Source: Bacillota bacterium
GTDB taxonomy: Bacteria > Bacillota > Sulfobacillia > JAJZYS01 > JAJYTV01
Assembly (NCBI GenBank): GCA_021799275.1
Contig: JAJZAT010000021.1
Span: 1-59,281, forward strand
Direction: 5' to 3'
Length of the DNA stretch: 59,281 nt
Shown piece after piece: positions 45,326-59,281 of this stretch. Position 1 is the stretch's first letter. The number at the start of each line of letters is the position of its first letter. The position numbers and the translations under genes were made by a program. The notes below the pieces were generated by a model. It saw only the letters and a list, made by a program, of their open reading frames with translations, did no database searches and was not told the origin of the DNA.

Positions 45326-47197
45326 GTGCCGAAGCCGGTCGGGCGTTCAGGTCGCTACATGCCTGGACTGGACGGTTTGCGGGCCATCGCGGTGCTCGGT
45401 GTCATCGCCTTCCACCTCGGCCTGCCCTTCGCCCAGGGGGGGCTGCTCGGGGTCGGCGTCTTCTTCGTTCTGTCCGGCTACCTGATCTCCGACATCCTGA
45501 TCGGGCAATGGGAAAGGCGCGGCGCCATCGATCTCAAGGATTTCTGGCTGCGGCGCGCCAGGCGGCTCCTGCCGGCGCTCTTCGTCCTGTTGCTGGCCGT
45601 CTCGGCCTACGTGACCGTCGTGCAGCCGAGCGAGCTCGGGGCGTTGCGCAGCGAGGTCGCGGCTGCCGCCCTCTATGTGAGCAACTGGTGGTACATCTTC
45701 CACCATGTCTCGTACTTCGCAAGCTTCGGTCCACCGTCGCCTCTGACGCATCTCTGGTCCCTGGCCGTCGAGGAGCAGTTCTACCTCCTCTGGCCAGGCC
45801 TGCTCTGGCTGGGGCTGCGCTTCCTGCCGCGCCGCGGCCTTCTGCTCGCGACCCTGCTCCTTGCGGCCGCCTCCGCCATGGCGATGGGGCTCCTCTTCCA
45901 TGGCGGCAGCGGGCCGGATCGAGTGTACTACGGCACCGACACCCGTGCGTTCGCGCTTCTGATCGGCGGGGCGCTCGCGCAGATCTTCCCGAGCAGGCGT
46001 CTTGGCAGCCTCCCGCTCCTGGCGCGGCGGCTGATCGAAGTCCTGGGTGGCGTCGGCCTCCTCGCGATCCTCTTCATGTTCTGGACGACCAACGAGTATG
46101 AAGCCTTCCTCTACCCCTACGGTCTGCTGATCCTGTCGCTGGCGACGGCCGGCGTCGTCGCGGCCGCCGTCCTGCCCGACGGGTTCCTCGGCAGGTTCCT
46201 TGGCATGGAGCCAATTCGCTGGCTCGGTGTCCGCTCCTATGGCATCTACCTCTGGCACTATCCGGTGATCACCTTGACCGCCTCCCTCGGGCCGAGCGGC
46301 TTCGCGCCGCTGCGCATGGCCCTGCAGGTCTCGGCATCGATCGCGCTCGCGGCGCTCTCCTGGCGCTACGTCGAAGAGCCGATCCGGCACGGGGTCCTGC
46401 AGCGCATGTGGCGCCTGTGGCGCCAGCATGCGCTGGGCCGCAGGAGCGTCTCGGCACACGGCGTCGTCACCGCGTGCGCCACCGGGCTCCTGTCGGTGGT
46501 GGCCTGCCTTGGCCTCGTCGGCATCGTGCCGACGGCCGCCGCGGGCTCCACGATGCCGGAAGTGACGAGCGTCCTGCCCACGGCACCCCTGCCGCGCATC
46601 GACCCTGCCCCGAACCTCATGGTGGCGCACGTCGTCCTGCCGCGTCGACGCTCCGTCGAGATGCCACCGAGCCAGCCGCCCCATCCCCCCTTGGGATCTT
46701 CCGTGACCGCCATCGGCGACTCGGTGATGATCGACGCCTCCCCCTACCTCCAGCGCCTCCTGCCCGGCATCACCATCGACGCGGTCGTAGGCAGGCAGCT
46801 GTACCAGACGCCGGCCGTGATCGCCCAACTCAAGGCGCATGACCAACTCGGCGCCCGCGTCATCCTCGAACTTGGCAACAACGGGCCGTACACGCGGGGG
46901 CAGCTGCTCTCGCTGCTGCGCTCGCTGAGCGGCGCGAAGGAGATCCTGCTCGTCAACACGCGGGTGCCCCGCCCGTGGCAGGATCAGGTCAACCGCCTGC
47001 TCGCCTCGGTCGCTAAGACCTACCCAGGCGCGGTGCTGGTCGACTGGTACGACGCAAGCGCGGGACACGCGAAGTTCTTCTATGCGGACGGCGTGCACCT
47101 GGATCCCGAGGGCGCGAGCTTCTACGCGAGCCTCCTGGCCCACACCCTCGTGGCCCACGCGGCAGGGCCCCACGCGCCCGCGTCCACGAGCCGCTGA
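45326..47197 (+). CDS. Acyltransferase 3 with SGNH domain (OatA/OafA-like)
   Basis: 623 residues from a GTG preceded by GGAGCGAGG. Residues 1 to about 350 are an acyltransferase-3 membrane domain with PGLDGLRAIAVLGVIAFHLG, LSGYLISDI, RRARRLLPAL and SLAVEEQFYLLWP; ten or so helices. A Pro-rich linker leads to an extracellular SGNH-type domain with AIGDSVMIDA (Ser near 465), LELGNNGPY and YADGVHLDPEG (Asp/His near 588). The layout is that of OatA, which O-acetylates peptidoglycan or wall polymers. It stands alone between divergent and convergent neighbours. Confidence 0.9.
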   Translation: MPKPVGRSGRYMPGLDGLRAIAVLGVIAFHLGLPFAQGGLLGVGVFFVLSGYLISDILIGQWERRGAIDLKDFWLRRARRLLPALFVLLLAVSAYVTVVQPSELGALRSEVAAAALYVSNWWYIFHHVSYFASFGPPSPLTHLWSLAVEEQFYLLWPGLLWLGLRFLPRRGLLLATLLLAAASAMAMGLLFHGGSGPDRVYYGTDTRAFALLIGGALAQIFPSRRLGSLPLLARRLIEVLGGVGLLAILFMFWTTNEYEAFLYPYGLLILSLATAGVVAAAVLPDGFLGRFLGMEPIRWLGVRSYGIYLWHYPVITLTASLGPSGFAPLRMALQVSASIALAALSWRYVEEPIRHGVLQRMWRLWRQHALGRRSVSAHGVVTACATGLLSVVACLGLVGIVPTAAAGSTMPEVTSVLPTAPLPRIDPAPNLMVAHVVLPRRRSVEMPPSQPPHPPLGSSVTAIGDSVMIDASPYLQRLLPGITIDAVVGRQLYQTPAVIAQLKAHDQLGARVILELGNNGPYTRGQLLSLLRSLSGAKEILLVNTRVPRPWQDQVNRLLASVAKTYPGAVLVDWYDASAGHAKFFYADGVHLDPEGASFYASLLAHTLVAHAAGPHAPASTSR

Positions 47198-47212
47198 AAG
47201 GCGGATCGCCCT

Positions 47213-47546
47213 TCAGGGCGAGAGGTTGGCCCAGGCCATGCGGATGGCCTGGGCCACGTCATCTGCGTCGGCTCTGGCAAGCAGGGTGAGCGTGCTGCCC
47301 TGCCGATCCCAGACTCCCACGGCAGGGCGAAAGATCTCCGGCCGTGCCAGGGGGAGCATGTCCTGCTGGTCAGGTCAGCTTGACCATCGCATGGCCCGCG
47401 TCCGGCGAGCCGAGCGTGGCCAGGATGCGCCCATGGACGCGCATACCGGGATGCCCCATGTGGGAGAGCTCGTCCACTCCGGGCAGGCTGAGAGCCAGCC
47501 GTCGGAAGCCTTGCGGACCCACGTTCCCATCTCGCCGCGCCCGCAT
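47213..47546 (-). pseudogene. Frameshifted MmcQ/YjbR (DUF419) gene
   Basis: Two minus-strand frames join into one MmcQ/YjbR protein. The first (ATG 47544-47546, stop 47370-47372) gives FRRLALSLPGVDELSHMGHP and GRILATLGSPDAGHAMVKLT. The second, one base out of register, continues with DQQDMLPLARPEIFRP, VWDRQGSTLTLLARADADDV and ends AIRMAWANLSP. The family normally reads VKLTPEQQ across this point. A single-base error or a real frameshift at about 47370 explains it. The family is small, DNA-binding-like and of unclear function. Both parts are too short to be noticed separately. Confidence 0.85.
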
Positions 47547-47575
47547 CCCGCTGGACGCTGTCTGTGGAGCCCGCT

Positions 47576-48013
47576 CTAGAAGCCCAGCTCCTTGCGGTCG
47601 CCGTTGATCTCGCTGATGATCACGAGCTTCGCCGTCTTGTTCAGCATGTGGGTGACGCCGCAGTACCGCTCCTGCGAGAGCTGGATGGCGCGATCCACCG
47701 ACTCGCGCTCGACGCCTTCACCTTCGGTGCGGTAGATCAGCCGGATCTCGGTGAACACCTGCGGGTGTTCCTTCGAGGTGTCCGCCTCGAGTTCGATGCT
47801 GAAGCTTTTGAACGGTACCCGCTTCTTCTTCATGATCGAGATCACGTCCATGCCGGTGCAGCCGCCAAGGCTGAGCAGCGTGAGCTCCTTCGGCCGTGCG
47901 CCGCGGTCGTCTCCCGCGTTGTCGGGCGCGGCGTCAAGCGTGATCTCGTGCCCGCTGCCGCTCTTCGCCACCATCGCCATATTCTCGACCCAGGTCACCT
48001 TGCCCGTGAGCAT
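47576..48013 (-). CDS. OsmC/Ohr family peroxiredoxin-like protein
   Basis: 145 residues, normal OsmC length, with GGAGGTGGC before the ATG. The two redox cysteines are in LLSLGGCTGMDVISIMKKKR and in LSQERYCGVTHML. Proteins of this family reduce organic hydroperoxides with thiols, in the cytosol. It stands alone between the MmcQ relic and the PAP2 gene, all on the minus strand. Confidence 0.93.
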   Translation of the reverse strand: MLTGKVTWVENMAMVAKSGSGHEITLDAAPDNAGDDRGARPKELTLLSLGGCTGMDVISIMKKKRVPFKSFSIELEADTSKEHPQVFTEIRLIYRTEGEGVERESVDRAIQLSQERYCGVTHMLNKTAKLVIISEINGDRKELGF

Positions 48014-48035
48014 CGAGAAGCCACCTCCGTGCTAG

Positions 48036-48641
48036 TCAGATCGCCTGCCTACCGCGACGCGCTGGCTCATTCACGTGGAAGAGCCGGATCACGTAGTCGG
48101 CAGGACGGCGCAAGGACCCCGAAAAGGCCAGGACCACCGAACTCGCGATGAACCCGACGGCAGCGCCGCCGAGCACGTCGGTCGGCCAGTGCACCCCGAC
48201 GAACACCCGCGCAAGGATGATCAGCACGGTGAGCAGCCAGAAGACGACCTGCCAGACGCGGCTCTGCCCGCGCAACGCGAAGGCCACCGCCGCGGCGACG
48301 GTCGCGTGGTCCGAAGGGAACGAGGCGTCGGCCGGATGCTGCACCAGCTGGTGTACGAGGTGCGGGTAGACGACGAACGGGCGGGGACGATCCCAGATGT
48401 GCGCGATGATGTAGTTGATCACGATGGCCACCACGGCCGATAGTCCCGCGTAGAGGAGCTGTCGGCGCAGGGCGACGTTCCCGCGCGGCAGCGCGAACCA
48501 AAGTACGACCATCAGCGCCGCCACGACAAAGATGGCGTACTGGGCCCCGAAGACGGCAAGCGCGTCCACGAAGGCGTTCCGGCCGGCCATCCCGTTCCAC
48601 CAGAGGAAGACGGTACGGTCGAATGCGTTGACCTCAGGCAC
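48036..48641 (-). CDS. PAP2 family membrane phosphatase (undecaprenyl-diphosphatase BcrC-like)
   Basis: 201 residues from a GTG start. The PAP2 acid-phosphatase motifs are WDRPRPF (with the usual Lys missing), ASFPSDHATVA and ARVFVGVHWPTDVLGG; about five membrane helices. Length and N-terminus (FDRTVFLWWNGMAGRNAFVD) fit BcrC, which recycles undecaprenyl pyrophosphate and protects against bacitracin. That would serve the wall polymer and peptidoglycan genes in this window. Alternative: a phosphatidylglycerophosphatase-type PAP2. Confidence 0.87.
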   Translation of the reverse strand: MPEVNAFDRTVFLWWNGMAGRNAFVDALAVFGAQYAIFVVAALMVVLWFALPRGNVALRRQLLYAGLSAVVAIVINYIIAHIWDRPRPFVVYPHLVHQLVQHPADASFPSDHATVAAAVAFALRGQSRVWQVVFWLLTVLIILARVFVGVHWPTDVLGGAAVGFIASSVVLAFSGSLRRPADYVIRLFHVNEPARRGRQAI

Positions 48642-48693
48642 CCCCCATCTCGCGCCCAAGGATAGGACTTGGCGTGCGGGATGGCAAGTCTTA

Positions 48694-50556
48694 TCAGGGC
48701 AGCGCGAAAGGCACCGGGCCACCGATGGTCCTGAGGAGGTCGTCGCCGCAGATCGGACAGTAGCCCTCTGCCGCCAACTTCTCCCGCACCTCGGCGATGC
48801 GCGCGCGCACTCCCTCGCCGGGGGACGCATCGTGCAGCGCGCCTTGCAGCAGGGTCTGGACCCGGCTGTAGAGGTGGCGTTCGAGGGCGGCTCGCAAGGC
48901 TGGATGCTGCGGCAGGTCCGCGATCTGTCCGCGCGAGCGCACGCTGGCCACCCAGACGCCGATCTCCTCGCGGAACGCGCGCTTCTGCGACTCCGCCACG
49001 CCGATCTCCTCTTCGACGCTGCGCAGCCGCTGCTCGACCTCCTCCTCGGTCGGCTGACCGAGCCGCATGGAGAGCAGGTAGGCGTCGAGCCCCTCGAGGT
49101 ACTGGTGCCAGAGCGTCGCGAGATTGTCCTCGAATGCCGCCACGAAGTGCGGATAGACCTCGCCCTCCAGGCGCCGGCCCAGGTCCTCGGCCACCTCGTG
49201 CAGCAGGTTCTTGTAGGTCTCCTGATCCCCTGCGTCGATCGACGGGTGGCTTGGGAGCCCGTCGTAGAGCGCGCGCAGCGCCAGGCCGACCGTCAGGCAG
49301 CCGTCGCAGCGCACCAGGGCTTGCGCCAGCTGGTTGACGATGTAGCGCGGCGAGATGCCGTGCATGCCCTCGCGCAGGCTCTCGCGCTGCAGATCCCTGC
49401 GATCGCGTTCCCCGAGTCCCTGGGGCTGCTCCTCGTCGTACAGGCGCAGCTTCTGCATCTGCCCGATCTCGCGGCGGCGGCTGGGCTCGAGGCGTGTCAA
49501 CACGGCGAACATCGCGGCCGCCTCGATGGCGTGCGGTGCGATATGCACACCCTGAGGCCTGCGCTCCACCACCAGGCGTTCGTAGATCCGCTTCTCGTCC
49601 CTGAGGCGCAGGGCGTAGGGCATGCGCACCACCACGATGCGATCCTTGAGGGCCTCGTTGCGCGGATCGTGGATGAAGGCCTGGTACTCGGCCTCGTTCG
49701 TGTGGGCGACCACCACCTCGTCGGCGTACATCAGGGCATACCGGCCCGTCTTGAACCGCCCTTCCTGGGCGAGGGTCAGGAGCGTGTAGAGAAAGCGTTC
49801 GTCGCACTTGAGCAGTTCGACGAACTCCATGAGGCCCCGATTCGCGACGTTGAGCTCGCCGTCAAAACGGAACGCCCGCGGGTCGGACTCGACGCCGTAG
49901 TCCGAGATCGCCGCGAGATCCAGTGAACCGGTCAGCTCGGCGACGTCCTGGGACTTGGGATCGGAAGGGGCGAAGGTGCCGATACCCCGCCTGCGCTCCT
50001 CGCTGATCAGGACGCGCTCGACCGGCACCGAGAGCAGCTCTTCCCCCTGGAGGCCGCCGTAGCGCATGCGGCAGACAGGACAGAGGTCGCCTTCGATCGT
50101 GACGCCAAGCTCCTGCGCCACCGCCTCCCGCGTCGCGCCGCTCAACAGGTGCAGCGGTTCCTCGCGCATCGGACAGCCTGCGATCGCGTAGAGGCTGCCC
50201 TCATCGCTCTGCGAAAAGCGCTCGAGTCCGCGCTTGAGGATCTCTACGAAGCTCGACTTGCCGCCACCCACCGGGCCGAGCAGCAACAGGATGCGCCGCC
50301 GCACCTCAAGTCCCTGGGCTGCGGCGGCGAAGAACGCGTCGATTTCCGAGAAGGCGGCGTCCAGCCCGAAGAGCTGCCCTCCGCAGAGCCCTTTGGCCCC
50401 GCCCGCCGCCACAAGCATACGATGCATCCGCCGGTGCGCGAGGTCCGCCACGTGAGGCCGCTGCCGGCAGATCTCCAGGTATTGCGCGAAGTCACCGTGC
50501 CACGGTCGCTGGCCGTCCGCCTGCTCACCGCGTCTGATCCGCTCCGCGATATCCAC
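48694..50556 (-). CDS. prkA: PrkA-type serine protein kinase / AAA protein
   Basis: 620 residues from a GTG after AGGAGGGG. Typical PrkA/YeaG: an N-terminal AAA module with GPVGGGKSSFVEILKRGLE (about 97), YADEVVVAHTNEAEYQAF, and a C-terminal Hanks-kinase-like region. Two Cys pairs, CPVC near 163 and CPIC near 606, are seen. In B. subtilis PrkA works in early sporulation together with YhbH and SpoVR; in E. coli YeaG/YeaH act in stress adaptation. SpoVR is encoded 2.6 kb away on the same strand; the YhbH partner survives only as relics. Confidence 0.95.
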   Translation of the reverse strand: MDIAERIRRGEQADGQRPWHGDFAQYLEICRQRPHVADLAHRRMHRMLVAAGGAKGLCGGQLFGLDAAFSEIDAFFAAAAQGLEVRRRILLLLGPVGGGKSSFVEILKRGLERFSQSDEGSLYAIAGCPMREEPLHLLSGATREAVAQELGVTIEGDLCPVCRMRYGGLQGEELLSVPVERVLISEERRRGIGTFAPSDPKSQDVAELTGSLDLAAISDYGVESDPRAFRFDGELNVANRGLMEFVELLKCDERFLYTLLTLAQEGRFKTGRYALMYADEVVVAHTNEAEYQAFIHDPRNEALKDRIVVVRMPYALRLRDEKRIYERLVVERRPQGVHIAPHAIEAAAMFAVLTRLEPSRRREIGQMQKLRLYDEEQPQGLGERDRRDLQRESLREGMHGISPRYIVNQLAQALVRCDGCLTVGLALRALYDGLPSHPSIDAGDQETYKNLLHEVAEDLGRRLEGEVYPHFVAAFEDNLATLWHQYLEGLDAYLLSMRLGQPTEEEVEQRLRSVEEEIGVAESQKRAFREEIGVWVASVRSRGQIADLPQHPALRAALERHLYSRVQTLLQGALHDASPGEGVRARIAEVREKLAAEGYCPICGDDLLRTIGGPVPFALP

Positions 50557-50606
50557 CGATACCCCTCCTGCCGATGAATCCGCGTGACCGCGGATCCGGC
50601 TGGCAT

Positions 50607-50636
50607 CGCGCTGTCCCACCGGGGCGGGACAGCGCG
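50607..50636. repeat. Perfect 11-bp inverted repeat upstream of prkA
   Basis: CGCGCTGTCCC and GGGACAGCGCG are exact inverted copies around an 8-base loop, about 50 bases before the prkA start and 40 after the dienelactone hydrolase stop. No U-tract follows on either strand, so an operator or leader hairpin is as likely as a terminator. Confidence 0.55.
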
Positions 50637-50675
50637 CCGCATATCATCAGCCTATGCGGCGAAGGGGCCGCTCGG

Positions 50676-51464
50676 TCAGCCCAGGAACTCGAGGACGCGG
50701 CGCATGGCGTCCTTCGCGGCCTCCGGACGGTAGGTCGCCTCGCGCGTGTCATTGAAGAAGGCGTGCGGCGCGCCGGAGTAGACGTGGTAGGTGAAGGGCC
50801 TGCCCGCCTTCGCCATGGCAGCCGCGAACGCCGGCACCGTCTCGGTGATGCGCTGATCATCCCCGCCGTAGATGCCGAGCACATCGGCCCTAATGTCGCC
50901 CACCTTGTCGAGCGGCGGGTTCTCCCCGTAGAAGATCACCGCCCGGCTGAGGCCGGGTTCCAGGGTCGCGAACTGCGCCGTGATGCCGCCGCCCATGCAG
51001 AAGCCGAGGCAGGAGATCCGGCTCGGGTCCACGGTCTTGAGCCCCGCGAGCAGGGCGAAGACTCCCTTGAGATCCTGGGCGAACGACCTGCGCTGCCCCG
51101 GGGTCATCACCCGCATCAAGGTGCGCAGGGCCGCCGCCTCTTCCGCCGGGCGCTCATCGATGAGGGCGCCCATGCTGCTCGGATCCCGCTGGATCTCCGG
51201 CGGCGCCTGCCGTAGGAACTGCATGCCGGCCATGATGCGGTCGCGCCGCATCGCCTCGCGCCATGGACCCGTATAGAGATCCGGCGCCAGGGCAACGAAG
51301 CCCTGGTCCGCGAAGCGCCGCGCCACGTCGCGGATGTGGTCGTCAAGACCCCAGATCTCGTGCACCACGATGATGCCGGGGTGCCGACCCTCTCCCTCCG
51401 GTTCGGCGAGGTAGGCCTCGATCGGGCGGTCTCCGCCTCGCAGCACGACGTCCCTCGTATGCAT
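50676..51464 (-). CDS. Dienelactone hydrolase family protein
   Basis: 262 residues with GGGGGGAG before the ATG. Alpha/beta-hydrolase of the DLH type: IVVHEIWGLDDHIRDVARRF near the start, the Cys nucleophile in LGFCMGGGITAQFA, an Asp in GIYGGDDQRIT and a His in SGAPHAFFND. It hydrolyses esters or lactones; the natural substrate is unknown, as for most members. It lies between the acyl-CoA ligase gene and prkA, all on the minus strand. Confidence 0.92.
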   Translation of the reverse strand: MHTRDVVLRGGDRPIEAYLAEPEGEGRHPGIIVVHEIWGLDDHIRDVARRFADQGFVALAPDLYTGPWREAMRRDRIMAGMQFLRQAPPEIQRDPSSMGALIDERPAEEAAALRTLMRVMTPGQRRSFAQDLKGVFALLAGLKTVDPSRISCLGFCMGGGITAQFATLEPGLSRAVIFYGENPPLDKVGDIRADVLGIYGGDDQRITETVPAFAAAMAKAGRPFTYHVYSGAPHAFFNDTREATYRPEAAKDAMRRVLEFLG

Positions 51465-51488
51465 GGAACTCCCCCCTGTGAATCGCTC

Positions 51489-53054
51489 TCAGCGCTGGCT
51501 CAAGGCCTCGCGCAGTTTGAGCTTGACGACCTTGCCGGTACCCGTCTTGGGCAGTTCCGGCAGGATCTCGAGACCGTGCGGGATCTTGAATCCCGCAATG
51601 CGCCCGCGCAGGTGGCCCAGGATCTCCTCAGGGCTCGCCTGCATGCCTGGCCGCAGCGCCACGAACGCGTACGGCACCTCGCCCCAGCGCTCGTCGGGCT
51701 TGGCCACGACCGCTGCTTCGAGCACCGCGGGGTGGGTGTAAAGCGCATCCTCGACCTCGACCGAACTGATGTTTTCTCCGCCGGAGATGATGATGTCCTT
51801 CTTGCGGTCGACGATCCGGACGTAGCCCGTCGGCTCGACGACCGCCATGTCACCCGTGCGGAACCACCCGTCGGAGAACGCCTGCGCCGTCTCCTCGGGA
51901 CGCCGCCAGTACCCGCCGAAGACCATGTCTCCCTGCACCCAGATCTCGCCGACGGACTCCCCGTCAGGCGCGACCTCCCGCCCACCTTCCTGCACGACCC
52001 GCATCTCGCAGCCTATGATCGGGAGGCCCGTAAGCGAGCGCAGCCGGTACTGGTCCTCCATAGGCGCGTTCTTGAGACTGTCCTTGATCGTCGCGAGGGT
52101 CAGGACGGGACAGGTCTCCGAAAGGCCGTACCCGACCGAGCAGTCCACGTCGAGCTTCTCGCGCGCCTCGCGGATCAGCGCGGCCGGCGGCGGCGCCCCA
52201 CCGATGATCACGCGCCGCAAGGAGGTGGTGTCGAAGCGGTCCCGCTCCGGGTAGTTCAGCAAGGCGGCGAGCATAGTCGGCACGAGCATCGCCAGGGTTA
52301 CGCCCTCCGCCTGCACCAGGCGGTAGAACTCCCCCGCGTCGAAGCGCGAGGTCACGACCTGCGTCGCCGCCTGCGCCACGATGAACTGCGGGGCGCCCCA
52401 ACCGTTGACGTGGAAGAGCGGCACCGTACCTACGAGTTGCACCTCGTCGGGATAGATCGGCGCCGACACGGCGACACCCAGGGCGTGCAGGTAGAGGTTG
52501 CGGTGCGTCAGCTGCACGCCCTTTGGTCGGCCGGTCGTGCCGCTCGTGTAGAAGATCTCCGCCACGTCCTGCTCGTCGATCCGCCCCGACATGAGGTCCA
52601 TCGGCGTGGCCCCGGCGACCAGGTTCTCGTAGAAGAGAACGCCTTCGCTGTCGGCGGGCCCGTCCAGCAGGACGAGAGGCACCCCGACCTGCTGCCCGAG
52701 CGCCCGCGCCATCGGCAGCAGGGTCTGGTCGGTGACGATCAGCCTGGGTTCGAGGTCCTGCAGGATGAAGAGAAGTTCGGGCGCCGTCAGCCTGACGTTC
52801 AGGGGGCTCAGGATGGCCCCCCTGGCGGGCACCGCGTAGTAGAGTTCGAGCAGGCGATGGCAGTTCAGTCCGAGGTACGCCACGCGATCGCCGCGCTCGA
52901 CCCCTAGGGACCTCAAGGCACCGATCAGATGACGCACGCGGTCGGCGTAGGCGCTGTAGCTCAGGCGCGTCTCCCCGCACACGACCGCGGTCTTGTCTGG
53001 CTCTCGTCGCTCGCTCTGCGCCAGGAATCTCAGGGGCGTCAACTGGACGGACAT
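51489..53054 (-). CDS. Long-chain/medium-chain acyl-CoA synthetase (AMP-forming)
   Basis: 521 residues from the ATG after GGGAGGTGGC. Adenylate-forming motifs: IFYTSGTTGRPKGVQLTHRN (P-loop), VGYGLSETCPV, GWFRTGDMAV, DRKKDIIISGGENIS and the C-terminal PKTGTGKVVKLKLRE with the acyl-adenylation Lys. It activates a carboxylic acid with ATP and CoA. B. subtilis yng operons contain such a ligase (YngI); here it is 7 kb from the leucine operon, so a link is only possible. Substrate unknown. Confidence 0.9.
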   Translation of the reverse strand: MSVQLTPLRFLAQSERREPDKTAVVCGETRLSYSAYADRVRHLIGALRSLGVERGDRVAYLGLNCHRLLELYYAVPARGAILSPLNVRLTAPELLFILQDLEPRLIVTDQTLLPMARALGQQVGVPLVLLDGPADSEGVLFYENLVAGATPMDLMSGRIDEQDVAEIFYTSGTTGRPKGVQLTHRNLYLHALGVAVSAPIYPDEVQLVGTVPLFHVNGWGAPQFIVAQAATQVVTSRFDAGEFYRLVQAEGVTLAMLVPTMLAALLNYPERDRFDTTSLRRVIIGGAPPPAALIREAREKLDVDCSVGYGLSETCPVLTLATIKDSLKNAPMEDQYRLRSLTGLPIIGCEMRVVQEGGREVAPDGESVGEIWVQGDMVFGGYWRRPEETAQAFSDGWFRTGDMAVVEPTGYVRIVDRKKDIIISGGENISSVEVEDALYTHPAVLEAAVVAKPDERWGEVPYAFVALRPGMQASPEEILGHLRGRIAGFKIPHGLEILPELPKTGTGKVVKLKLREALSQR

Positions 53055-53164
53055 GTCGGCCACCTCCCGCTCCATCTGGCCACGGCTTCGCCCGTCGCCG
53101 CCCGATTCCTGCCAGCTGGCCGGGCTCGGCTCGCCGTCCACTCCGCTGACGGCCGGCCGTGCGC

Positions 53165-54367
53165 TCACCCCTCTCGCCGCACCTCCTGACCGTCATGGCG
53201 CAGGCAGACGCGCTGTCCCCCGACGATGGTCTCCAGCAGCACAGGGGCAGCCCAAAGCTTCTGGATCTCGCCCAGAACCGATTCGGCGTCCGGCAGGTCG
53301 AGATCTCGCCCGTCATGGAGATGTCGCAGCCGCAGCGTGCAGCCCGTGACCGCCTGATCAACCTCGACCGTCGGACGGCCGGCCGCACCCGCCTGGCGGA
53401 GGAGGTCGCGGCGGACATCGTCGACGTCGCGGCTTGGGCCCTCCCCGCTCGAGGGCACGGCGAGTCCGAGCCGGTCGACGGTGCGCTGGCTCAGGTAGTC
53501 GCGGATGAGTGCCTGGTCGTCGACGACCCCAGCGACCTCCAGCAGGTTGTCGAGTGCTCTGCCGATGGGCGCCTCGCCCCGCGTCGCCCCGGCGGCCAAG
53601 GCGATATCCTCCAGGATCTCGAGGCCCAGCGCGTAAGGATTCAGCCAGCCGGGCTCCATCGCCACGAGCCGGCTGTGCAGGAGGGCCACTTCCATACGGT
53701 CCGGTGGGGCAAGATCGAGGTCGCGCAGGATGCGCAGATGCCAGAAGCAGGCCCAACCCTCGTTGACGATCTTGGTTCGCTCCTGGGCCTGGAAGTAGAG
53801 CGCCTCTTCGCGCACCATTTCGAGGCAGTCCCTCTGCCATGCCTGGAGAGGCGCTTGCCTGGCGATCGTTCCGACGAGGTCCTGGGGACCGAATTGCGCG
53901 ACGTGCGTCTCGACCAGCAAGGCCGTGTCCAGGACCGACTCCACCGCCGTCTGGCCGTAGGACGCGATGTAGTCCCCGATGCGCTGGCGATGGAGGAGGA
54001 CCGTGCGGGCCACGTCCGGGTCCTGTCCCCTAAGCCAAACGTTGCGGTGGAAGAAGTCCGCGTGGCCCAGGACGTGCGCCCCGACGAGCAGGTCCTCGAT
54101 CGGCCTGTTGCCGGCGAGCACGTAGGCCTGCGGGGGCTCCGTGTGCACGATCAGCTCGTAGATGCGCTGCAGGCCGAGCTCCCCCTGCAAGCGCAGGCGC
54201 TGGTAGGCCTTGCCCCGGGACCAGTGCCGGTAGCGCCCGAAGAGTCCGTAGGTGGCAAGGCTCCAGAGCGCCTGGGGCGGCAGTCGGAAGAGCCGCACGT
54301 CCCCTGGCGCGAGGCCAAGCCGCTCGGCGCGGCGGCGCAGCGCCGCGAGGTCAAGGTCAGGATCCAT
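53165..54367 (-). CDS. spoVR: SpoVR family protein
   Basis: 400 residues starting at MDPDLDLAALRRR, since the ATG overlaps the stop of the YhbH relic. SpoVR stretches: YGLFGRYRHWSRGKAYQRLR, YELIVHTEPPQAYVLAGN, VLGHADFFHRNVWL and KIVNEGWACFWHLRIL with family His residues. In B. subtilis SpoVR helps spore cortex formation and belongs functionally with PrkA and YhbH. It is somewhat shorter than the 460-500 residues of many relatives, mostly in the C-terminal part. Confidence 0.93.
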   Translation of the reverse strand: MDPDLDLAALRRRAERLGLAPGDVRLFRLPPQALWSLATYGLFGRYRHWSRGKAYQRLRLQGELGLQRIYELIVHTEPPQAYVLAGNRPIEDLLVGAHVLGHADFFHRNVWLRGQDPDVARTVLLHRQRIGDYIASYGQTAVESVLDTALLVETHVAQFGPQDLVGTIARQAPLQAWQRDCLEMVREEALYFQAQERTKIVNEGWACFWHLRILRDLDLAPPDRMEVALLHSRLVAMEPGWLNPYALGLEILEDIALAAGATRGEAPIGRALDNLLEVAGVVDDQALIRDYLSQRTVDRLGLAVPSSGEGPSRDVDDVRRDLLRQAGAAGRPTVEVDQAVTGCTLRLRHLHDGRDLDLPDAESVLGEIQKLWAAPVLLETIVGGQRVCLRHDGQEVRREG

Positions 54368-54560
54368 AGGTGTTGCACCGCTGGTCGAGCCCACCGAGAA
54401 CTTTCCGGGGATCCGGGACGGGCAGGCCACAAACCTGCGCGCGGCTGGTCGCCGAGAAGGTGCTGCCAAGCCGTGACGGACGGCTAGGCGGGCGAACTTC
54501 GACATAGGCGAACGGATCACCGACGAGCAGTATCCAGGGAACCGCGGGCCGTGCCGGGCG
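54357..54560 (-). pseudogene. C-terminal relic of a YhbH/YeaH (DUF444) gene, copy 1
   Basis: The frame ends ATGGATCCTGA, its stop overlapping the spoVR start. Its last 60 residues (VGDPFAYVEVRPPSRPSRLG then PVPDPRKVLGGLDQ) match the C-terminus of copy 2 at 57.4 kb, where upstream DUF444 sequence (DGDNWGD) survives. DUF444 C-termini read like YGEI or YVEV followed by a short strand-helix and F..V.V.D...V..AL..LF. Nothing like the rest of YhbH is upstream, so only a fragment remains, still placed where yhbH would be expected next to spoVR. Confidence 0.55.
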
Positions 54561-55024
54561 GCTCTGCGCGACACTCCGCTCGCCACGTTCGCTTAAGTCG
54601 CGGTCGGCGGGACCCTTCAAGTTCACGCTCAACCCTCCCCCATCCACCAGCCGGACGGCCAGGCGGGAAACGCGGCAATTTCGGACGTGCAATGGCTCTC
54701 AGAGACCTGCAGGTCTCTAAGAACCATCCATATGTGGTTGCCTGGGTGGCCGTGCAAGCCCATACCACCGTCTGGGGCACGGATGGAATGACAAGAACCA
54801 CACGCGCCTTCTCATGAGGGCTGGATGGTCCGTGAGCGAGGCGCTTCAGCTCGGATGCTGCACGGGCCCAGCCGTGATCCGCGAAGGTCACAGCTGGACC
54901 CGGCCGCACGTTCCACCCATCCGGTCTACACTGCGCCGATCCACGTCGACCGGCTTGGTTCGCACGAAGCAGCATGACGTAGAGGGAGGCGTTCCACTCC
55001 GGGGGCATCCCGCCCCCGACGGTG
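54561..55024. other. Intergenic region with degenerate sequence and a palindrome
   Basis: No convincing gene. One minus-strand frame is open (54517-55074) but its composition and lack of family resemblance argue against coding. A GC-rich hairpin (CGGGGGC 55000-55006 with GCCCCCG 55012-55018) follows the next gene's stop; it lacks a U-tract. The middle holds an 18-bp palindrome listed separately. The stretch may be decayed yhbH or other former coding DNA. Confidence 0.45.
54701..54718. repeat. 18-bp perfect palindrome
   Basis: AGAGACCTGCAGGTCTCT equals its own reverse complement with no spacer. It lies about 140 bases upstream of the YhbH relic and 330 upstream of spoVR, within sequence that codes for nothing evident. 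It could be an operator for the relic-spoVR transcript. Confidence 0.5.
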
Positions 55025-56401
55025 TCAGTGCGAGTGCTGGAGCTGGCCCACCGCGGCAGCTTGCGGCTGTCCACGCCCGACGACCGACCAGATGGCGAGC
55101 ACGGCGCCGATCACGATCACGACGAAGCCGATGGTCGTGACGACGAACGAGATGCCGTGGCTCGCCTGGTTGACGAAGATGTAGAGCATGCCTCCGATGA
55201 AGGCGACGAACGCCCCGGCGAGCAGGGTCCAGGTGGCGCTGCGGCGGAGACCCTGGTCCACAGCGAGCCACTTGAGCGCCAGGAGGACGGTGAGGAGGGC
55301 CGGCATCAGGAAGAACGCGAAGTCCTGGTGGAACCAGGTGAACACCGCGTCGGCCGGGGACCCCGGTGCACCGGCGGCACCAGCGCCGAAGACGTTTTCG
55401 TGGAACTCGATGTAGTAGCCGAAGCCCACGACCGTGACGAAGAGGATGGCCGTAACAACCACCGCACCCCAGCGGTGCAAAGCGTCGGGCAAGGCTTCCA
55501 GCCCGAGGCCGATGAGGGCGAGCAGACCGCCGCCCATCACAAAGACGCCGGTGATGGCGTCGTCGCCGGCGAGGCCGTTCGGGCCATGGGCGAACAGCAT
55601 GGGGGGCTGCGCCGGGGAGAAGCCGCCCACGACGTACACGAAGGCGGCGGCGATCGTGCCGAAGGCGACAAGCCACAGCCCGAACTTCGTCACCCGGCTG
55701 CCCTGGCGCTCAAGGCCGTATGCCGCAACGGTCGTGGCGACCGCGAGGGCGATAACGGCGGTGACCATGTCGTGCGAATGTGAGCCGATGAGGTTCGCAA
55801 GCCAGTCCTGCCACTTCATGCCGGCCATGGTGGCGTAGCCGCCGATGATGCCCTTGGGCCAGTCGCCAAACTCCAGCATCCAGCCGGCAATGTGCCCCAT
55901 GATCGCGGCGAAGAGAGCACTGAGTGCGGCGAAGGCCGCCGTCCACGTCCAGATCTTGCGGGTGTCGGCGGCACGGAAGAAGAGGGCGATGGTGAGAGAG
56001 ATGAGGATCTCGTCGAGGAAGAAGAACGAGATGATCTGCATCCAGAGTGGCACGACGTCTGCGATCACGTGGTTGAAGATGCCGCCGAGGCCGCTGAAGA
56101 GCGCGGCGCCCAGGGTACCCCAGAGGATCAGGTTGTGCAGGGTCTGGTTCTTGTGGCCTGCACCGAACACATCCATCGCAACAAGCGACAGGAAGCCGAC
56201 CATGCCGATCAGGAGGCCGTGCAGGTACATGACGTGGGAGTAATCGATGTTGGCGCCAGCCGACGGCTCCGACTGGAACGGCGTCGATACGAACGTGCTG
56301 CCGAGGGCCAGCAGCAGAAGCCACACGAGCATGCCGACGACGACACGCTTCTCCGGCGACCAGAGCGCCTCACTGAGATTCGCCTTGCCGTCCTTGGACA
56401 T
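55025..56401 (-). CDS. Twelve-helix membrane protein rich in intramembrane His, family not recognised
   Basis: 458 residues from the ATG after GGAGGCTTCC. About twelve membrane helices. Histidines cluster in or next to helices: YSHVMYLHGLLIGMVGF (56, 61), GAGHKNQTLHN (83, 89), FNHVIADV (111), IMGHIAGW (170), IGSHSHDM (208, 210), FHQDFAF (358). The HxH pair and YLHG are reminiscent of haem ligands in heme-copper oxidases or NO reductases, but the spacing differs and the Cu ligands and HPEVY motif are missing. So it is a possible haem-binding membrane protein; nothing more can be said. It stands alone, under a 20-bp palindrome. Confidence 0.75.
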   Translation of the reverse strand: MSKDGKANLSEALWSPEKRVVVGMLVWLLLLALGSTFVSTPFQSEPSAGANIDYSHVMYLHGLLIGMVGFLSLVAMDVFGAGHKNQTLHNLILWGTLGAALFSGLGGIFNHVIADVVPLWMQIISFFFLDEILISLTIALFFRAADTRKIWTWTAAFAALSALFAAIMGHIAGWMLEFGDWPKGIIGGYATMAGMKWQDWLANLIGSHSHDMVTAVIALAVATTVAAYGLERQGSRVTKFGLWLVAFGTIAAAFVYVVGGFSPAQPPMLFAHGPNGLAGDDAITGVFVMGGGLLALIGLGLEALPDALHRWGAVVVTAILFVTVVGFGYYIEFHENVFGAGAAGAPGSPADAVFTWFHQDFAFFLMPALLTVLLALKWLAVDQGLRRSATWTLLAGAFVAFIGGMLYIFVNQASHGISFVVTTIGFVVIVIGAVLAIWSVVGRGQPQAAAVGQLQHSH

Positions 56402-57382
56402 TGTGGAAGCCTCCTCGACCCTAACGTCTCGTCGGCTCGGTGCCAAGCGCACTCCCGACGGGAGAACCCCGCGACACGTCATCGCCATGACCGCCTTGGG
56501 GGCGGTGCAGGGTGTGGCCCGGGCCACACCATCCGAATGCAGGATAGCAGCACCCCCGAAATGTGAAGCCGTGCACAAGGTCCCGCCTGGCTGTGGCAAG
56601 CAGTCCAACTTTAAAAAAATTAAGGATTCGCCGCCGTGGCCATCGGCCGCACATGTCGCAGCTTGGGTTAATGACACCTAACCCGCACGGTCCACAAGGC
56701 TCGGGCAAAACGGCCGGATCCGTCGGCCCCCTGTCGCGGTCCCGGTGGCGCGCAACCCAGGTACCCTCGGCGTGTTCTCGTGCTCCTCTTGGCTACCACC
56801 GCGAGGCCGCAGGGAATCTCGCTGCCCAACTCCCGCCGGGTCGCCAAGCAGAAGACGCCACCAGCCCCGGGTGCGGGCTTATAGAATGGTCAGCCATGCA
56901 TGCGCCCATATGATACATGGCGCGAGTCCACGGCCCACCGTTCTTGGGTCAGATCGGCCACCTTGCACTGCGGTGCGATGACCGCAGCGGATGTTCCTCC
57001 ATCCCCGTGGGAAGGCGAGTCGTACTAGGTCGGAACCCAAGCCACGACCTTGCGAAAAGGTGGCCGACCAATGGGACCCGTGCTCTACGTGCTTCGCAAG
57101 TCGGCGGCAAGGTGGACTGTCCAATAGCGGGACGCCATTTCCGCTCGAGGCACCCCGATGTGGTTGTACCTCTATCCGGCGGGAGCAGAGCGAACCATCC
57201 CCGTCAGCGACGTCATGAACCTGTCCGCGCATGGCTGCGGCGGCAACACCGTGGCCGTCGACTTTCTCTCGGCCGCTGGCATGAAGACGCGCCCCAAGGC
57301 CCGAGCGCCCTTGCTCGGGCTTGCGCTGATGCCGCGGGCCTCATGTGCGATGGCGCAACGTGCGCCAGCGCCACCCCCGTCC
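56402..57382. other. Intergenic region, about 1 kb, no gene recognised
   Basis: Apart from the 20-bp palindrome, the part nearest the membrane protein gene has an A/T-rich tract (CTTTAAAAAAATTAAG at 56610-56625), unusual in this GC-rich DNA and possibly an UP element or curved site. Several short frames are open on both strands, as expected for such base composition, but none shows family resemblance, a good ribosome binding site or a neighbour that would support it. Confidence 0.45.
56511..56530. repeat. 20-bp perfect palindrome upstream of the His-rich membrane protein gene
   Basis: GGTGTGGCCCGGGCCACACC is its own reverse complement over 20 bases. It lies 110 bases before the start codon, in the right place for a dimeric regulator's operator. 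I know of no regulator with this site and it is not an Fnr/Crp or NsrR box. Confidence 0.6.
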
Positions 57383-57720
57383 TCAGTCTGGCCCTTCGGT
57401 GCCGAAGAGCTGGTCGAGCGCCCCGAGGACGCTCTGGCGGTCGGTGACCCGCAGGCTGCGAAAGCGCGGGTGATTGATCTCGGAGAGCGTGCTGCCCAGA
57501 CCCGAAGGCCGCCCGTGCGGACGCACCTCGACGTACGCGCACAACCCGACCACAGGCAGCATGCATGGACGAGGTCGCGCGCCAGGCGGTTGTCGGCGTC
57601 GCCCCAATTGTCGCCGTCCTCATGGAGCAGGACGACGAGTGGGCCACCTCACGCCGATACTTCACGTAATCCTCTCAAACACCGACAACCCGGGGCAGCC
57701 TCAGCTCCCTGAGTCTGCCG
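57383..57720 (-). pseudogene. Frameshifted relic of a YhbH/YeaH (DUF444) gene, copy 2
   Basis: Minus-strand pieces in different frames line up with DUF444. One (from 57648) reads GGPLVVLLHEDGDNWGDADN then RLARDLVHA, matching the family's HFSDGDNWGDDNERC. The next frame gives VVGLCAYVEVRPHGRPSGLG, INHPRFRSLRVTDRQSVL and GALDQLF to the stop at 57383, the family C-terminus. A third piece further upstream ends SSESGGRL, possibly the RGESGGT part. At least one frameshift separates them. The protein normally works with PrkA and SpoVR, both intact nearby. Confidence 0.65.
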
Positions 57721-57740
57721 CCTGACTCGCTTGACGCAGG

Positions 57741-58057
57741 AAACCTCTCGCGCCTTTTACACCTACTTGACAGACTCGACCGAGCCGCATGCGGCAAGCC
57801 ACCCTTCGCCAGCAGGACCGGCTGAGCATCAGCGCACGCCCCGACCTGATGGCGGCACACGACGATCACGAGATCCGCGCCCGTCGGGGAGTGACGGTGA
57901 ATCGCCGCAATCCCGACGCCGACCGTCGCCGTCGTGTCTTGCTCCGGCCCTGGACACCGGGCCTGACGAACTCTCGGAGGCGGCAGCGAGCATCGCCTGC
58001 TTGTTGTGCAGCGCATCATCTCGCTTCGGTTCGTGTCCCGCTTCCTCTTCGGAATGG
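57741..58057. other. Probable decayed N-terminal part of the DUF444 relic
   Basis: No intact gene. A minus-strand frame includes VVCRHQVGACADAQPVL, loosely like the strand before the ESGG motif of DUF444 (VVFIAHHTEAKEV), so the relic may reach to about 58000. The match is weak and I do not insist on it. Nothing else was recognised here. Confidence 0.35.
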
Positions 58058-58621
58058 CTACAGATCCGGGACGTCATTACGCCTGCCCGCCGAAGGCGGC
58101 GGCTTCAAATGCTCCACTGTCGATTCGGGTCTCTGCAGTTGACTCTTTACGTGCAGAAGGAAATGAAGGTCCGATTTGTCCTTGTCCCTCATGCCCTGCT
58201 TCGTGGCAATGAGGGTAGTGAGGTCCGCCACAGGAACAGTGACGTCACCAAGGGAGACTTGAATCGTCCCGGCGTTTTCGAAGCGCACGTCACCGACCGC
58301 CCCCAGCAGACCCACCGTGACCTCGTCCTGTACTCGGACGACCACGTAATCCTCAATGTCCCCGAGGCCGAGATCAGCCGCCGCGTTGTCCTTGAGAACG
58401 CTCAGGGCCTCCTTAAGGCGCCGTACATTCTCCCGGGACGAATCCACCAGGAAGTCGATGTCATGAGTGGCCCGATCGAGCCCATAGTAGTTGACTGCGA
58501 AACCGCCGATCAAAATGTACCGGCATCCGGCCCGGTTCAAAGCGTCACATAGGCGAATCAGGTCTCGGAGGGTTGGCGTTCGGCTCGCCGGGGCCTCACT
58601 GTCATCCTCTCCTGCCACCAC
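58058..58621 (-). CDS. Nucleotidyltransferase-fold protein (MNT/AbiEii-like)
   Basis: 187 residues from a GTG preceded by GAGGAGG. The N-terminal half has the minimal nucleotidyltransferase motif: ILIGGFAVNYYGLDRATHDI then DFLVD (GG...DxD type), and a later VADLTTLIATKQGMRDKDKSDL typical of proteins that scan as AbiEii or DUF6036. Such proteins act as toxins or as tRNA/protein-modifying enzymes in defence or toxin-antitoxin pairs. It overlaps the small gene upstream by 64 bases, and the pair has its own promoter. Whether the pair is a toxin-antitoxin system is inference. Confidence 0.8.
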   Translation of the reverse strand: MVAGEDDSEAPASRTPTLRDLIRLCDALNRAGCRYILIGGFAVNYYGLDRATHDIDFLVDSSRENVRRLKEALSVLKDNAAADLGLGDIEDYVVVRVQDEVTVGLLGAVGDVRFENAGTIQVSLGDVTVPVADLTTLIATKQGMRDKDKSDLHFLLHVKSQLQRPESTVEHLKPPPSAGRRNDVPDL

Positions 58622-58815
58622 GCATCCGCCTCCTCGTAGGAGCGAAACCGGAAGACTCCCCGTGGGCGCACGACGTCGACGCCTCGCAGGCCGTTCAGCA
58701 ACTCGGCAAAGCCCTCCATCCGTTCAAAGCCAAAACTCCGGTTGCCGCTCCGGTGGCCGACAACCTTGCCGCGGTCGTCAAAGTCTCGTGGGGACGGCTC
58801 TACCGGTCGGTTCAC
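58558..58815 (-). CDS. Small partner protein of the nucleotidyltransferase
   Basis: 85 residues from a GTG with GGAG four bases upstream. It contains GFAELLNGLRGVDVVRPRGV then FRFRSYEEADAWWQERMTVR, a pattern found in short proteins encoded just before nucleotidyltransferases of this kind. It could be the antitoxin or a regulatory subunit. Its 3' end overlaps the nucleotidyltransferase start by 64 bases in another frame, so the two are translated as a unit. Confidence 0.65.
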   Translation of the reverse strand: MNRPVEPSPRDFDDRGKVVGHRSGNRSFGFERMEGFAELLNGLRGVDVVRPRGVFRFRSYEEADAWWQERMTVRPRRAERQPSET

Positions 58816-58838
58816 GCAGCTCCATCCCCTTTGCCCCA

Positions 58839-58867
58839 AGTATAGCCACAGCACGCATGGCGGCCAA
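58839..58867 (-). promoter_or_regulatory. Sigma-A promoter for the nucleotidyltransferase pair
   Basis: TTGGCC and TATACT are 17 bases apart on the minus strand, about 17 bases from predicted start point to the GTG of the small gene. It isolates the pair from the tnpB element upstream. Confidence 0.65.
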
Positions 58868-59107
58868 CTCACGTCGGCGGGACTTGCTCGACTGGAGTAG
58901 CCCGGTTTCGTGGAAGCCGCCTCCAATGGCTGCGAAGCGCAGGATTGCGCTTGCATGCCGCCGTGGAGCGCCATCAGCTTTCCAGTCTGGCCGTGGCCGA
59001 GGACGAGGTGGAGGCAAAGGAGCAGCGCAAGGATCCCTTGCTCCCTGCGGCACAGCGTTGCCGGGCGACGCGCCCTTCCGCTCCGTTCACCGTTCCGTCG
59101 GACCTAC
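58868..59107. other. Spacer between the transposon end and the nucleotidyltransferase pair
   Basis: No gene recognised. Part of it, next to the tnpB hairpin, is likely to be the right end of the IS200/IS605-type element; the exact boundary cannot be set without the other end or an empty site. Confidence 0.4.
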
Positions 59108-59133
59108 CCAAAGCTACTCAAAGGTAGCTTTGG
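59108..59133 (-). repeat. Right-end hairpin of an IS200/IS605-type element, overlapping the tnpB stop
   Basis: CCAAAGCTAC and GTAGCTTTGG make a perfect 10-bp stem with a 6-base loop. IS200/IS605 elements carry such subterminal hairpins, recognised as single strands by TnpA, and the omega (re)RNA that guides TnpB comes from this same end. Here the hairpin contains the tnpB stop codon, so the guide RNA would overlap the end of the gene. Confidence 0.65.
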
Positions 59134-59281
59134 AGCCGACTTCCTGCTTCAAAGGGGGCCGGTTGCACAGCAGCGGGATGCCTGCTGCCAGAGCCTTCCC
59201 CTCCACAGGCAGACGCCGTGGAACTCACGGCGTATTGGGCCAGGTTGATGGCTGCGTTCAGGTCACGATCGTGCATGGTTT
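59118..59281 (-). CDS. tnpB: TnpB (IS605 OrfB) RNA-guided nuclease, C-terminal fragment at window edge
   Basis: The last 53 residues are visible: MHDRDLNAAINLAQYAVSS contains the third RuvC Asp in the DRDLNAA motif, and the tail is the usual Gly/Ser-rich variable end. The zinc finger and the rest of the protein lie outside. TnpB is the transposon-borne ancestor of Cas12, using the element's right-end RNA to cut DNA at the empty donor site. No tnpA is visible. The gene ends inside the right-end hairpin. Confidence 0.85.
   Translation of the reverse strand, partial: TMHDRDLNAAINLAQYAVSSTASACGGEGSGSRHPAAVQPAPFEAGSRLQSYL

Follow-up and report, generated by a model that had tools for sequence, protein, structure and literature searches.

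A twelve-helix membrane protein family of one Bacillota class that appears to be an unnoticed offshoot of the haem-copper oxidase superfamily

The gene and its leader element

On the minus strand of the window (the whole stretch of 59,281 nucleotides that was analysed), positions 55025-56401 encode a 458-amino acid protein (P0001) which, judged from its AlphaFold2 model and structural matches, has 12 transmembrane (TM) helices and the fold of the haem-copper oxidases (HCOs). The gene is genuine and coding. It starts with an ATG at 56401, 9-13 nt downstream of a ribosome-binding-site-like GGAGG box (56410-56414, minus strand), and its homologues share the same start methionine; the plus-strand frames across the interval are GC-rich antisense frames only. 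When compared with a 92%-identical relative, the window gene differed 29, 12, and 153 times at codon positions 1, 2, and 3, respectively, with 142 synonymous and 36 non-synonymous codons, which argues that the protein is under constraint.

No haem or respiratory genes are adjacent to the window gene. Downstream on the same strand lie genes that, named by eye, we take to encode SpoVR, an AMP-ligase, a dienelactone hydrolase, and PrkA, the hydrolase-like and ligase-like genes being placed between the PrkA- and SpoVR-like ones (48694-54586, minus strand). A preliminary description of the locus had called this a solo gene lacking a cytochrome partner nearby. Within the window this is correct on both counts, yet 'solo' applies to this copy alone: there are three copies in the genome, two of which are paralogues on contig C52 (75% and 60% identity), and members in other genomes adjoin a haem O synthase gene or a cytochrome oxidase operon (see below).

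Upstream of the gene, comparison across the genus revealed a conserved leader element of two inverted repeats, GGCCCGGGCC-N10-CCGCCCCCAAGGCGG (56491-56525, minus strand), which within the genus occurs only upstream of members of the 12-TM family. It is probably an operator or leader controlling the window-type gene alone. Rfam returned no match across positions 46000-59281, and the leader RNA was not predicted to fold better than shuffled sequences. A second copy of the element is present in the same genome (G000:C52:60953-60987), and a two-palindrome form, GGCCCGGGCC-N-CCGCYCCCAAGGCGG, was seen at six places across six genomes of the genus, in every case ahead of a window-type member by ∼75-125 nt. 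Promoter-like boxes (TTCACA/TATCCT) are found directly upstream of the leader element.

An oxidase fold outside the known sequence families

Single-sequence and profile searches against Pfam, NCBIfam, PHROGs, and PDB sequences yielded chance matches only, and neither the query nor the scanned relatives matched PF00115 or any oxidase or nitric oxide reductase (NOR) model of NCBIfam. A clear match to a non-haem transporter family, which would have spoken against the haem-protein proposal of the preliminary description, did not emerge either. The AlphaFold2 model, built from 11 aligned sequences and hence to be read with moderate confidence (pLDDT 73, pTM 0.81), contains exactly 12 TM helices, as had been counted before, and the lysine and arginine counts on the two membrane sides (16 vs 2) place the N-terminus inside. 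For comparison, the catalytic fold of HCO subunit I comprises at least 12 TM helices (PMC3084760).

When this model was submitted to Foldseek, the first 23 matches were HCOs (best E 9e-4), after which the next, unrelated matches dropped to a probability of 0.33. With a second structural aligner, the best 50 entries were all catalytic subunits of HCOs or NORs, at Z 18-23 over 365-416 residues and thus far above the Z of ∼13 that, according to the aligner's own guide, unrelated helical bundles may reach. The top match was CcoN of a cbb3 oxidase (8smr_E; Z 22.8, rmsd 3.7, 370 residues), followed by a mycobacterial aa3 oxidase (6adq_F, Z 22.2) and NorB (4xyd_A, Z 22.2); NorB and aa3 tie with CcoN within 1 Z. 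The family shares its 12-TM fold with NorB/qNOR (PF00115; also 3o0r_B, Z 21.7) and with aa3, bo3, and ba3 oxidases (Z 18-22), including the two canonical COX1 proteins encoded in the same genome. We consider the window protein very probably of HCO fold and ancestry.

Profile-profile comparison, the remote homology search that had been proposed for this protein, supported the relationship at the sequence level. The profile of 31 members matched NOR and cbb3-like sequences from related genomes with E 2.3e-4 (a single-pair value), and the whole-profile score of 41.2 was reached in none of 200 column shuffles (best 34.5). When the profiles were cut into four-helix blocks, the sole strong cell paired TM5-8 of the family with TM9-12 of the HCOs (E 4e-6, z 8.3; E 2.8e-6 for the block against the NOR+cbb3 profile), and this cell was also best for the block in each of the three clades of the family (near, middle, far) taken alone (E 7e-6, 1.2e-3, and 1e-4). 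At its core, the TM6-TM7 region (residues 195-263; 55613-55819, minus strand) is homologous to TM10-TM11 of NO reductases and oxidases, and the NOR TS-H-x-H motif with its following helix is homologous to that of the family (E 4e-6). The SHSH motif on TM6 thus corresponds to the HxH on HCO TM10, whose spacing H208 and H210 share. The last five helices gave no significant profile match of their own, similarity to CcoN was weaker than that to NOR, and homology to the A-type oxidase profile was undetectable by sequence. We treat the homology of the family to the HCO superfamily as computationally established.

The helix correspondence is less straightforward, for the HxH lies on TM6 in the family, while in NOR it lies on TM10 in sequence order. 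Likewise, the whole-profile alignment pairs residues 14-262 (TM1-7) with HCO TM5-11. Read literally, this would describe a branch cyclically permuted by a single four-helix repeat, in which TM1-TM8 equal HCO TM5-TM12 and TM9-TM12 equal HCO TM1-TM4, with H208, H210, and H358 as haem ligands, H61 as a metal-B residue, the copper centre abandoned, and a haem O synthase of its own in the far clade. Such a cyclic shift would account for the ligand count, which is 2/1/1 on TM6/TM10/TM2 of the family and 2/1/1 on TM10/TM2/TM6 of the HCOs. However, the four-TM repeats of HCO subunit I are detectably related to each other (in the NOR+cbb3 profiles, L086-L146, repeats I/III at E 2e-12 and II/III at 6e-7), so that a match to a neighbouring repeat is no proof of permutation. 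In addition, a fragment model of TM1-8 superposed on TM1-8 of the HCOs and not on TM5-12 (Z 13.6, rmsd 5-6 Å), which is why we do not claim the shift. We accept the homology and keep the cyclic shift as a hypothesis suggested by sequence and unsupported by structure; the permuted branch as a whole we regard as possible, if rather doubtful.

Four conserved histidines and no copper site

Residue conservation was counted over 31 members, excluding one degenerate copy, with the members having a given position as the denominator. Four histidines stood out: H61 on TM2 (codon 56219-56221; 28/29), H208 and H210 on TM6, the first and second histidine of SHSH (55778-55780 and 55772-55774; 30/31 and 31/31), and H358 on TM10 (55328-55330; 30/30), all codons being on the minus strand. 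Whether the histidines converge, a check raised in the preliminary description, was judged by helix and membrane depth: the four residues are limited to TM2, TM6, and TM10, and all lie on the outer side, as do the conserved D280, D281, E332, E335, and Y256. The preliminary description had pointed to the motifs YSHVMYLH and SHSH and to histidines 61, 111, 170, 208, and 210. Motifs and numbering are right, and H61, H208, and H210 are indeed conserved; H170 (26/31) and H111, at the outer end of TM3 (56069-56071, minus strand; H in 17/28, R in 7/28, and absent in the far clade), are not invariant, and H358 had been overlooked.

In HCOs, TM2 and TM10 carry the haem ligands, while TM6 and TM7 carry the metal-B histidines, an established arrangement whose ligand residues are described in PMC10256718. 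The family has conserved histidines on TM2 and TM10, the helices of the low-spin bis-His pair of HCOs; which residues would form the ligating pair depends on the helix register. TM7 of the window protein (236-259) lacks histidines, the tandem histidine pair required for CuB/FeB is absent, and the previously noted lack of the canonical copper-site pattern is thereby borne out. Under the shifted register, H61 falls on the metal-B histidine that NOR has on TM6, and H111 comes near the His-His pair of NOR TM7; N/D110 and H/R111 occupy the place where the HH pair is expected and are lost in the far clade. Judged from the aligned residues, the three-His CuB/FeB site is missing in either register. 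Despite the shared fold and ancestry, the family thus lacks the defining HCO feature as it is usually applied, the set of six histidines (PMC3084760). It also differs from each of its structural neighbours in particular: from aa3, bo3, and ba3 oxidases by the absence of HPEVY and HHMF motifs, from CcoN by the absence of the CuB histidine pair and of CcoO/CcoP partners, and from NOR by the absence of a TM7 histidine pair, of the FeB glutamate, and of a PF00115 match. The marks of an NOR are an FeB site of three histidines with a conserved glutamate, and NorC or a fused cytochrome/quinol domain; the family has no HH pair and no glutamate at the NOR position, and such a partner was not seen in the scanned neighbourhoods.

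The same residues allow for our main rival reading, a reductase of NO or O2 operating without copper at a non-standard metal-B site. There, H208 would bind a high-spin haem and H210/H358 a low-spin one, while H61 and other residues would hold iron or another metal, D/N110, H111, the acids D280/D281, E332, and E335 being candidate partners of H61. The shifted register, which keeps all three haem ligands and puts H61 on the NOR metal-B histidine, agrees with this, and NOR subfamilies do differ in their metal-B coordination (PMC10256718). On the other hand, all clades have just one of the three metal-B histidines in common, the far clade lacks H111, the NOR TM6 glutamate is absent, and the genome already has its two COX1 genes. 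We judge a gas reductase unlikely.

Neighbouring genes and the cofactor

In the far clade, the most divergent one, all four loci carry, directly upstream of the family member, a gene for a UbiA-type enzyme that matches the haem O synthase model TIGR01473 (L110:2162-3166, L111:5757-6905, L112:6287-7219, and L109:5373-6299) with 186-209 bits, just below the cut-off of 210. Each of these genomes harbours in addition a canonical haem O synthase copy (321-334 bits), whereas ten other family carriers examined were without a divergent second one. We infer that this linked second haem O synthase is the best genomic sign of haem as the cofactor. It bears on the choice of function as well, for haem O commonly takes the high-spin position where gases are reduced and is typical of oxidase active sites, so that the linkage favours the gas reductase over pure electron transfer. 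Against the reductase stands the set of partners: no NorC, CuA, or CcoO-like partner was found near members in the neighbourhoods scanned. That neither a cytochrome c nor a CuA partner was seen there also speaks against the electron-transfer reading. One family member is found immediately after a cytochrome oxidase operon (COX1-end and COX3 matches).

The haem O synthase also weighs on the view that the HCO fold persists here without haem, as a transporter or scaffold whose histidines serve otherwise, e.g. in proton or metal transport. A transport or metal site of this kind could be made up of the conserved outer-side acids, but the conserved histidines sit on haem-ligand helices in an HxH pattern and the second synthase goes with the far clade, which leaves a haem-free protein quite improbable. 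Only slightly less improbable is a membrane protein for binding, sensing, or delivering haem or NO, with the HCO fold but without turnover. Such a role would resemble that of NnrS, a polytopic haem/copper membrane protein and putative haem protein outside respiration. The solo gene, its leader element, which suggests dedicated regulation, and the several diverging paralogues, one of them without H61, H170, and H208, would suit it. However, the Pfam model of NnrS (PF05940) did not appear among the matches of the query (E ≤10) or of its relatives (E ≤1), and signalling genes were not among the consistent neighbours of members.

Further neighbours recur around the family. Genes for a pair of secreted proteins and for ApbE repeatedly accompany window-type paralogues. 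At C52-type loci (L027:13055-18513, L033:1-9439, L029, and L030), paralogues alternate with repeated secreted-protein pairs (∼300 and 480 amino acids, without confident family match) and the ApbE flavin transferase. A similar larger secreted partner occurs together with ApbE fragments at L100, which belongs to another family. Covalently bound flavin, a cofactor brought to mind by the nearby ApbE, found no support, as no DxxSGAT-type motif is present in members or partners; a conventional cytochrome partner was discarded, too, as no CxxCH electron carrier was recognised in the scanned neighbourhoods. Besides, a UbiE-type quinone methyltransferase with a fused universal stress domain is encoded next to or near members of two clades (L111:8397-9845, L106:10508-12115). 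An Fe-S protein gene follows one far-clade member (L112:9074-14747), along with genes that, again by eye, we presume to be NrfD-like and molybdopterin-oxidoreductase-like.

A proposed di-haem cytochrome

Taken together, the HCO fold, the profile homology to NOR, and the lack of any curated family accord with the preliminary proposal of an unrecognised branch of the oxidase and NOR superfamily or a new haem protein. With no sequence family, an oxidase/NOR-like predicted shape, four histidines kept, and no copper site, the family has the look of an offshoot that has escaped notice within a central enzyme superfamily. Haem binding by the window protein is likely in our estimation, given the conserved histidines and the haem O synthase. 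We propose, as a reading that is evenly balanced between right and wrong, that the family is a branch of the HCO fold that binds haem but lacks canonical CuB, acting as an outer-side di-haem electron-transfer cytochrome. Haem-carrying helices would have been kept and the three-His CuB/FeB site lost. The four conserved histidines would form two pairs, to which TM6 contributes two (H208, H210) and TM2 and TM10 one each (H61, H358): each TM6 histidine would ligate a haem from one side, and H358 and H61 would do so from the other, giving two six-coordinate, bis-His-ligated haems near the outer membrane side. Electrons, most likely from quinol, might then pass to an outside acceptor or partner rather than to O2 at a haem-copper centre, and in the far clade one haem would probably be farnesylated (haem O). 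Taken separately, di-haem electron transfer falls somewhat short of an even chance.

Aerobic respiration and denitrification are centred on haem-copper oxidases and NO reductases. Catalogues that build on sequence models and six histidine ligands miss same-fold relatives such as the 12-TM family; for instance, one published classifier drops sequences without these six residues (PMC3084760). As a natural experiment, the family could reveal which elements of the site are needed, what a copper-free version of the fold is for, and how the superfamily arose from three four-helix repeats. Present in multiple copies in these Bacillota, it could also represent an uncharted component of the respiratory chain.

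Distribution and divergent copies

Relatives were found in 23 of the 154 genomes of the same Bacillota class. Outside the class, a sample of 398 genomes from the phylum gave no convincing match, its three weak ones being short fragments, two with internal stops, and homologues were absent from viral contigs and from the plasmids searched. Within these viral, plasmid, and phylum-wide samples, the family is thus found only in one Bacillota class. Its tree resolves near, middle, and far clades, the long branches of which call for caution. The open-access literature contained no account of such a family, which is weak evidence of novelty as most subscription journals lie outside that coverage.

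Several copies depart from the common architecture. One tandem second copy (L008:2877-4244, identical to L095:160-1644) has lost H61, H170, and H208 and kept H210 and H358, and by these residues appears to be a natural half-site variant. At G001:C143:32843-33235, we noted a broken family copy with a stop. Finally, one member without the first helices (L032; G006:C25:23799-24967) faces, head to head on the opposite strand, an inverted version of its final two helices.
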